From Rhodobacterales bacterium (GTDB taxonomy: Bacteria > Pseudomonadota > Alphaproteobacteria > Caulobacterales > Hyphomonadaceae): a DNA stretch of 64,000 nucleotides. Shown in pieces: positions 27,896 to 29,111 of the stretch. The DNA lies in assembly GCA_014763715.1 (NCBI GenBank), contig JACXUV010000009.1, positions 1 to 64,000 on the forward strand, in the 5' to 3' direction. Every line of letters starts with the position of its first letter. The stretch's first letter is position 1. Made by a program: the position numbers and the translations under genes. A model generated the notes under the pieces. It worked only from the letters and a program-made list of their open reading frames with translations. It was not told the DNA's origin and did no database searches.

Positions 27896-28636
27896 TTAGC
27901 GCACCAGCATCCAGACCGCCATAGCCACCATCAGGACGTTTTCCAGCAGGGAGACGAAGCCGAGCGGGACATTGCTGTTGCCGCCCACACAGGCGCATCT
28001 GAGGTCCCGCTTCTCGATGTAGACTGCCTTGAACACGGACACGGCCCCGATCGTACCAATGAACAGGGCCAGAGGCGCAGCAAACCAGATCAGGGCCCCG
28101 GCGATCATCAGGACACCAGCCAGCAATTCCGCAAACGGATAGATATAGGCATAGCGCACATAGCGCCGCGCCAGCAGGTCATAGCCGAGGAAGGTGTTGG
28201 AAAAGGCGTCGAGGTCCCGCAGCTTCTGCACGGCCAGGAGGCACATGCTGATCGCGATAAACCATTCTGCCGCCCGCATTGTCAGCAATGTGCCATAGGC
28301 CGCCCAGCTGACCGCCAGCGCCATCATTGCGGCAGACGCAAAGATCGCGACGACCGGCGTGTAGGTCTTCGCATCCTTGTCCTTCCGCGGGTAGCTGAAG
28401 AACATCCGCAAATCGTCATAACCGCCAATCCGCTCCCCACCGATAAAGGCCTGCGGTGTCGTCTTCACATCGTGTTCGGCCTTGAAGGCATCGGTTTCCT
28501 CCCGCGAGGTGAGCAGGCGATCATCTACCCGGTAGCCCTTGCGGCGCAGCAAGGCGCGGGCTTTCAGACCGAACGGGCAGACATGTGACGGCGTTTTCAT
28601 CCGGTAGAGGATGGCGACAGGTTTGGACGGCGACAT
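27896..28636 (-). CDS. glutaredoxin-MauE fusion membrane protein
   Basis: The 246-residue fusion starts at ATG 28636. The N-terminal glutaredoxin-like domain (about 1-85) has PSHVCPFGLKARALL with a single active-site cysteine (C20), and TTPQAFIGGERIGG with the cis-proline glutathione site. After it come four membrane spans of the MauE/DoxX type, then a C-terminal CACVGGNSNVPLGFVSLLEN with a Cys-x-Cys pair before the last span. Such proteins are thought to move electrons or thiols across the membrane. The gene is divergent from a MerR-family regulator, and a MerR-type promoter drives it, so it should respond to a metal or thiol signal. Confidence 0.75.
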   Translation of the reverse strand: MSPSKPVAILYRMKTPSHVCPFGLKARALLRRKGYRVDDRLLTSREETDAFKAEHDVKTTPQAFIGGERIGGYDDLRMFFSYPRKDKDAKTYTPVVAIFASAAMMALAVSWAAYGTLLTMRAAEWFIAISMCLLAVQKLRDLDAFSNTFLGYDLLARRYVRYAYIYPFAELLAGVLMIAGALIWFAAPLALFIGTIGAVSVFKAVYIEKRDLRCACVGGNSNVPLGFVSLLENVLMVAMAVWMLVR

Positions 28637-28671
28637 GGGGGGACAGCTCCACTTGTATGTCAGGTCCCGCC

Positions 28672-28703
28672 CATATAGCTTCCGTACCATGGTACGGTTG
28701 CAA
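28672..28703 (-). promoter_or_regulatory. MerR-type promoter/operator with long spacer for the Grx-MauE gene
   Basis: On the minus strand a -35 TTGCAA (28698-28703) and a -10 TATATG (28672-28677) are separated by 20 bases, the elongated spacing that MerR-family activators correct by twisting DNA. The spacer holds a perfect 16-bp palindrome CCGTACCATGGTACGG at 28682-28697. Its half-sites CCGTAC-N4-GTACGG are those I recall for the mercury operator merO. The regulator gene begins just to the right, so it probably binds here. Confidence 0.8.
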
Positions 28704-28715
28704 GACGATCTGAAC

Positions 28716-29111
28716 ATGAGCATCGGACAGCTCGCCCAGGCCGGCGGCGTGGGGGTGGAAACCGTCCGCTATTACCAGCGTCAAAACCTGATGGCGCTGC
28801 CTGCCCGGCCTGCTGGCGGCGGGGTATCAGGCGGCACGCGGAAGTATGGCCCGGCGGACCTTGAACGCCTGCGCTTCATCCGCTCCGCTCAGGCGGCCGG
28901 CTTTACCCTGAAACAGATTGCCCGGTTGATCGAACTCGACGCCACATCAGACCGGTCCGAAGTGCGCCAGATGGCCAGCGACAGGATCGGCGCGCTGGAC
29001 GCCCAGATACAGGAACTGAAAAGGGCCCGCACGGCCCTGCAGAAACTGGCCCATCAGTGCGACCATGCCGAAGATGGCCCTTGCCCGATCCTGAAGGCGT
29101 TCGAGGCCTAG
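28716..29111 (+). CDS. MerR-family metal-responsive regulator with CueR-like cysteine spacing
   Basis: The 131-residue activator has an N-terminal winged helix (MSIGQLAQAGGVGVETVRYYQRQNL and GGTRKYGPADLERLRFI), a dimer coiled coil, and a metal loop near the end with C115 and C123. The C-x7-C spacing matches CueR (C112/C120). The position where MerR/ZntR carry an essential cysteine near residue 80 is Arg80/Ser81 here. By that logic it should sense a monovalent metal such as Cu(I) or Ag(I), not Hg(II), although its operator looks mer-like. I start at ATG 28716; ATG 28689 lies inside the operator. Confidence 0.8.
   Translation: MSIGQLAQAGGVGVETVRYYQRQNLMALPARPAGGGVSGGTRKYGPADLERLRFIRSAQAAGFTLKQIARLIELDATSDRSEVRQMASDRIGALDAQIQELKRARTALQKLAHQCDHAEDGPCPILKAFEA

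Follow-up and report, generated by a model that had tools for sequence, protein, structure and literature searches.

The locus considered here raises the question of which signal is read by a MerR-type regulator that combines an operator of the mercury-resistance (mer) type with a metal loop of CueR spacing, and that has a glutaredoxin-MauE membrane fusion (Grx-MauE) as its divergent neighbor. The window, by which we mean the whole 64-kb stretch of DNA that was analyzed, lies on contig G000:C82 of a genome of 3.55 Mb. The preferred reading, to which we give a probability of roughly 60%, is that regulator, operator and grx-mauE form a self-contained MerR-type switch of the Cu(I)/Ag(I) type that would activate a membrane glutaredoxin; the switch itself is suggested by the mechanism of the MerR family, and the metal by gene context and sensor residues.

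Gene layout and the mer-type operator

Analysis of the window showed that the regulator gene (28716-29111, plus strand, 131 amino acids) and grx-mauE (27896-28636, minus strand, 246 amino acids) face away from each other, their start codons being separated by 79 bases. The regulator belongs to the MerR superfamily: the Pfam domains MerR_1 and MerR-DNA-bind both scored above their cut-offs (58.6 bits against 21.6 and 57.4 bits against 25.4). The pair is flanked by a gene that we take to be trmFO, by a squalene/phytoene synthase-like gene and by a gene for an Fe/Mn superoxide dismutase, which starts about 0.7 kb beyond the regulator with one gene between. A search of the 64 kb with the chosen references and thresholds gave no mer gene, no CopA or multicopper oxidase, and neither CueR nor CsoR, in agreement with the first-pass annotation, which had seen no MerA, MerT, CopA or CueO nearby.

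The same annotation had described a perfect palindrome inside a 20-base promoter spacer with half-sites of the merO type, and both points held. The palindrome CCGTACCATGGTACGG, located by sequence, pattern scans and locus comparison, is perfect across 16 bases (28682-28697, no strand). On the minus strand, reading towards grx, the -35 element TTGCAA (28698-28703) is followed by a 20-base spacer (28697-28678), at the start of which the palindrome lies, and then by the -10 element TATATG (28672-28677). This arrangement is conserved: the -35 element begins with TTG in 32 of 33 loci, the window's included, and a -10-like hexamer (T or C, A, any base, A) was found exactly 20 bases from the -35 element in all 31 loci tabulated. 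Across 33 loci the half-sites retained all twelve bases in 22, at least eleven in 30 and ten in 3.

Annotated mer loci have the same half-sites, e.g. in TTGACTCCGTACATTGGTACGG. The proteobacterial MerR consensus given in the available part of PMC1526738 is TCCGTAC-(4)-GTACGGA within a spacer of 19 bp, and a few mer loci of "mixed type" are described there with a 7-4-7 palindrome in a 20-bp spacer. From these half-sites and layouts the operator is of the mer type, in the rarer 20-bp arrangement. The half-sites are not exclusive to Hg(II)-responsive MerR (Hg-MerR), since CCGTAC half-sites also occur 5' of further MerR-like genes whose products belong to the same wider branch (L195, L199, L204, L205 and more).

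The exact pattern CCGTAC-N4-GTACGG was found 13 times in 42 genomes of the genus, 12 of these sites being located between the regulator and Grx-MauE; the sole exception (L053, G006:C12:310477-310492) lies away from any such pair. A reversed-pattern control gave 21 sites in the same genomes, so the number of palindromes is ordinary and the signal is in their location. The host genome contains a single exact site and two sites with one mismatch (C89:16227 and C101:55472). A wider regulon in this genome was considered and rejected: allowing up to three mismatches gave 1182 sites against 3066 for the control, and counts below the control carry no meaning.

Sensor residues and lineage of the regulator

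The window regulator has just two cysteines, C115 and C123, which delimit a Cx7C loop followed by PIL, and it has Arg80 where Hg-MerR has a cysteine; the first reading of the sequence had described the C-x7-C loop and the lack of a cysteine near residue 80. MerR ligates Hg(II) via Cys82, Cys117 and Cys126, according to the accessible portion of PMC5027573.

The residues at these places were compared in 34 regulators (33 distinct sequences, those of L008 and L054 being identical). Both loop cysteines are present in 34/34, and 33/34 have exactly two cysteines. At the place of Cys82, 28 regulators have Arg and 6 have His; this position is Cys in 6/6 Hg-MerR rows, and Ser (7) or Asn (2) in nine CueR rows. 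The metal loop is Cx7C in 32 regulators and Cx6C in 2, as compared with Cx8C in the Hg-MerR rows and Cx7C in the CueR rows, and it reads CPI[LIV] in all 34. Ser77 and Lys81 have roles in CueR; the equivalent of Lys81 is Arg in 31 regulators, His in 2 and Leu in 1. With Arg or His at the place of Ser77, the site does not match that of CueR residue by residue.

None of the NCBIfam models for MerR, CueR, ZntR and CadR-PbrR recognized the regulator above its cut-off. The Hg(II)-MerR model TIGR02051 gave 106 bits, below its curated cut-off of 150.85, and the CueR model TIGR02044 gave 78.9 bits against 147.4. The best match in the PDB was 5crl, a mercuric resistance operon regulator.

Compared with the Hg(II)-MerR/mer operator system of the Tn501/Tn21 type, the regulator is alike in the CCGTAC-N4-GTACGG half-sites, the divergent layout, the equivalents of C117 and C126 and the CP[IL] loop. 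It differs in lacking the third cysteine, Cys82 being replaced by Arg or His throughout its clade, and in having Cx7C, not Cx8C. Its spacer is of 20 bp, whereas that of proteobacterial mer loci is of 19 bp (PMC1526738, as far as this source was available), and its divergent partner is Grx-MauE and not merT, merP or merA, no mer marker being found in the window. With CueR/HmrR the regulator shares the two-cysteine Cx7C loop followed by PI, with no third cysteine, and a basic residue at the place of Lys81. It differs from them in the absence of Ser at position 77, the CueR rows having Ser or Asn where its clade has Arg or His, in its position outside the CueR clade, and in an operator built on CCGTAC and not on ACCTTCC, with a spacer of 20 and not 19 bp (same source, same part).

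For the phylogenetic analysis, 70 MerR-family rows were aligned over 127 columns, including the 34 regulators found beside Grx-MauE or its remnant. With only 127 columns, the inner forks of the tree are weak. The 34 regulators form one clade (support 100/96), which is sister to five proteobacterial Hg-MerR rows (joint branch 96/89); the nine CueR rows stand apart in a clade of their own (100/99). The first-pass annotation had proposed a unit of "mixed parentage", and this was not supported. A MerR/CueR chimera was rejected since the tree places the regulator beside Hg-MerR; the tree is of the whole protein, and a swap limited to the metal loop would be possible. As the clade is sister to Hg-MerR and apart from CueR, its CueR-like loop spacing looks convergent, and not borrowed, as judged from the sequences.

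These data identify the regulator as a separate variant: it has the lineage and the operator of the mercury sensors, a CueR-like two-cysteine site, and a basic residue at a place where the Hg-MerR and CueR rows have none. Absence of the third cysteine is not unique to the clade linked to Grx-MauE, since L195, L204, L205 and L210, which belong to the wider branch, also have no such residue.

Another MerR-like group (L195, L197, L199, L200, L202, L204, L205, L210) has an exact or near CCGTAC-type palindrome 5' of its own gene; L199 and L200 adjoin MerA-like stretches, and the third cysteine is variably present. L195, L199, L204, L205 and other MerR-like regulators of the class belong to the same wider branch (99/94) and share the half-sites, some of them also lacking the third cysteine; they differ from the regulator in falling outside its clade and in lying away from Grx-MauE in the stretches examined.

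Since the first of the three Hg(II) ligands is replaced, copper or silver is probably sensed rather than mercury. The regulator could still be a mercury sensor that holds Hg(II) on two thiolates, with Grx-MauE as a mercury or organomercury accessory. The mer-type operator and the Hg-MerR sister clade would fit this, as would the linear dithiolate, which is the predominant geometry of Hg(II) in the part of PMC5027573 that was available. In the same part, the change C82Y in MerR is described as seriously harming both dimerization and Hg binding, and the third ligand is missing in 34/34 regulators. Mercury markers were found near Grx-MauE in 0/80 loci (1/39 control stretches), and the host genome has no MerA above the cut-off. 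We consider a mercury sensor quite unlikely.

Grx-MauE and its co-occurrence with regulator and operator

Grx-MauE was characterized by Pfam, an alignment of 81 sequences, motif counts and an AlphaFold model. The Pfam domains Glutaredoxin (28.1 bits, cut-off 22.9) and MauE (50.9 bits, cut-off 27) were both recognized. The glutaredoxin part contains H18-V-C20-P-F-G, and C214-A-C216-V-G-G precedes the last predicted helix (225-245), so the CACVGG pair noticed earlier near the last span was recovered. Among 80 relatives from named records, HxCPxG is present in 79 and CACVGG in 80.

The model (mean pLDDT 85.4) has a glutaredoxin fold followed by long helices at 93-114, 120-140, 160-179, 183-207 and 225-245; mean pLDDT is 61 across residues 211-220, which include the Cys-Ala-Cys pair, and the position of this loop is poorly modeled. 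Loops with Lys/Arg residues lie ahead of helix 1, between helices 2 and 3 and between helices 4 and 5. These loops, the Cys-Ala-Cys pair and the glutaredoxin domain may be on one side of the membrane, which is only a guess as it was obtained by simple charge counting on the model. Among the 50 matches listed of 820 in a structure search, none was to the MauE part, and those of low rmsd span about 80 residues, corresponding to the glutaredoxin part. No relative of Grx-MauE was found in viral contigs.

The one described relative found is SmGrx3 (SMa0280) of Sinorhizobium meliloti pSymA, a Grx(CPYG)-MauE protein 63.6% identical to that of the window; the latter has the features of the SmGrx3 type, an N-terminal glutaredoxin domain with CPxG and a C-terminal MauE domain with CACVGG. 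The SmGrx3 locus contains a divergent MerR protein, 52.7% identical to the regulator, and a similar operator that shows two departures. SmGrx3 was described as having weak deglutathionylation activity and a mutant without phenotype, and its function was called unknown; the available part of the review (PMC6315971) mentions neither a MerR-type neighbor nor a copper test of the Smgrx3 mutant. In literature on Grx-MauE with MerR or copper, and on metal choice in MerR proteins, no study of the regulator was recognized within a search that most subscription journals lay beyond.

The co-occurrence of regulator, operator and target was analyzed in three samples, which overlap slightly: the window's locus, G037 and G041 belong to both the related-genome and the class sample, and L054 and L060, whose contigs equal G009:C56 and G026:C6 in length, probably duplicate L008 and L005. 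The related-genome sample comprised 61 genomes, i.e. the window's own and 60 relatives. Grx-MauE matched in 32/61, and was full-length in 23 (24 copies); partial matches, mostly to the glutaredoxin part, were excluded from the counts. Of 23 loci examined, 15 have the regulator in divergent orientation to Grx-MauE, all 15 with the palindrome at no more than one departure, and no palindrome was seen in the upstream stretches of the remaining 8.

The named-record sample (L054-L133) takes in the best 80 out of 582 confirmed relatives and so leans towards close ones. Ten of these best 80 have the regulator divergent to Grx-MauE, and the palindrome (up to two mismatches) was found in 10/10 loci with the regulator and 0/70 without it, shuffled sequences giving an expectation of 1.3/80. 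In the class sample of 385 genomes, Grx-MauE is present in 22 (24 loci), with the regulator at 5/24 loci. Regulators of this type occur in 6/385 class genomes at 168 bits or more, the next score down being 127 bits. Five of the six adjoin an intact Grx-MauE; the sixth (L192, 1891-1988) has the regulator and an intact palindrome beside an 18-residue C-terminal remnant of Grx-MauE, identical at 14/18 residues, and is a decayed pair. These counts, which the first-pass annotation had proposed as a check, bear out its description of a compact unit of regulator, operator and target.

At three loci (L005, L006, L011) the regulator and the operator are cleanly missing, while grx-mauE and the trmFO-like, synthase-like and superoxide dismutase flanks are kept. 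These are either natural losses or places where the regulator and operator were never gained, and grx-mauE has no visible operator there. Such loci would agree with a regulator that has no sensing role, acting as a constitutive repressor or autoregulator and kept beside grx-mauE by linkage. Against this stand the metal-loop residues and the promoter spacing, which are conserved over divergent lineages, and the presence of the pair on plasmids as well; we hold a regulator without sensing to be very improbable. The plasmid matches examined were 4 of the 60 listed for Grx-MauE and 6 of the 40 best for the regulator; of the plasmid reference loci, 5 of 40 and 4 of 40 listed were examined.

Copper genes around Grx-MauE and the proposed switch

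Elsewhere Grx-MauE adjoins regulators that are named for copper. CueR, with its own box, is divergent from Grx-MauE in 3/80 named-record loci (L067, L069, L082), and CsoR lies directly upstream in 2/80 (L066, L111), in each case within 400 bp. In the class sample (24 loci), CueR adjoins Grx-MauE in 2 and CsoR in 4; of the former, the CueR frame at L176 departs from the family before the metal loop. A CueR-like frame without the metal cysteines, about 350 bp from Grx-MauE (L169, G323), was excluded from the count. In CsoR-type loci such as that on a Rhodopseudomonas plasmid (L037), the target protein is the same (69% identity), whereas the place of the MerR protein is taken by an unrelated family, annotated as "metal-sensitive transcriptional regulator".

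CueR-like boxes were found upstream of Grx-MauE in 12/80 loci, the expectation from shuffled sequences being 3.2. A CsoR-like pattern was found in 2/80 against an expected 3.45, so this box is no evidence and the CsoR linkage rests on the genes.

Copper markers were found within about 6 kb of Grx-MauE in 43/80 loci and in 0/39 control stretches, which were taken from 15 genomes different from those of the 80 loci. The 43 loci are less independent than this figure suggests: part of the marker set came from islands surrounding Grx-MauE (L038, L153, L154), and the 80 include several near-copies of a single island (L073, L075 and L078 being similar to L038). A copper marker is near Grx-MauE in 2/10 named-record loci with the regulator and in 41/70 without it; as the window and 8/10 regulator loci have no copper marker, the copper link runs via the target gene and not via the regulator. 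Neither a copper marker nor this regulator is present in 29/80 named-record loci. Six plasmid copies of the pair were examined: the three from sphingomonads adjoin annotated copper genes, and the three from rhizobia show none (one of these records is unannotated).

The host genome encodes a CueR of its own, whose gene has a CueR-type promoter and adjoins a copper ATPase gene; four copper ATPases scored above the cut-off, and no match to CsoR was obtained. As a CueR is already present, the need for a further Cu(I) sensor is not obvious. By eye, a short glutaredoxin-like CPDC frame apparently lies between the host CueR and the copper ATPase, on the opposite strand (L033, G000:C37:151210-154413).

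The association of the same target gene with CueR, CsoR and copper genes elsewhere makes copper the likely signal, and the monovalent-metal signal put forward earlier is likely on the strength of the sequence, which has no third cysteine. A redox reading stays alongside: a disulfide between C115 and C123, or their glutathionylation, under oxidative or electrophile stress would switch the promoter, metals being incidental. It would account for a target with a glutaredoxin domain, for exactly two conserved cysteines in the regulator, for Arg80 and Arg84, which could favor a thiolate or an anionic ligand, and for the nearby superoxide dismutase gene. The CPI[LIV] metal loop in every regulator, the position of the clade as sister to a metal sensor, and the linkage of the target gene to CueR or CsoR elsewhere speak for a metal instead, and we judge a thiol-redox sensor to be unlikely.

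In the preferred Cu(I)/Ag(I) switch, a regulator dimer bound to the palindrome in the over-long 20-bp spacer would hold the grx-mauE promoter shut. C115 and C123 would bind a soft monovalent ion between them, Cu(I) being the most likely and Ag(I) or Au(I) possible, and the metal-loaded dimer would untwist the DNA so that RNA polymerase could begin transcription of grx-mauE. The product would be an inner-membrane-anchored, single-cysteine glutaredoxin facing the cytoplasm; thiol exchange between its C20 and the Cys-Ala-Cys pair, located on the same side, would be possible. It would help to repair or buffer membrane thiols under copper stress. The task of Grx-MauE and its topology are the part of this explanation of which we are least sure.

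The regulator would be a further kind of MerR-type metal switch, and its target belongs to a glutaredoxin class that is known but unexplained. Tentatively, and at somewhat less than even odds, monovalent-metal sensing may have arisen a second time among MerR-family proteins, in this clade: a branch from within the mercury sensor lineage that, with Arg/His at the third position, a loop of CueR length and the mer operator, would act as a Cu(I)/Ag(I) switch beside CueR, on a different operator and, by exact sites, with a single target. The clade offers a natural test of metal choice in MerR sensors, being related to Hg-MerR and sharing its operator half-sites, with Arg/His in the third position in 34/34. 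Copper or silver is a concrete lead to what membrane glutaredoxins of the SmGrx3 class do; and if the operator is free of cross-talk with CueR, the unit may provide an additional metal-responsive switch for biosensors.
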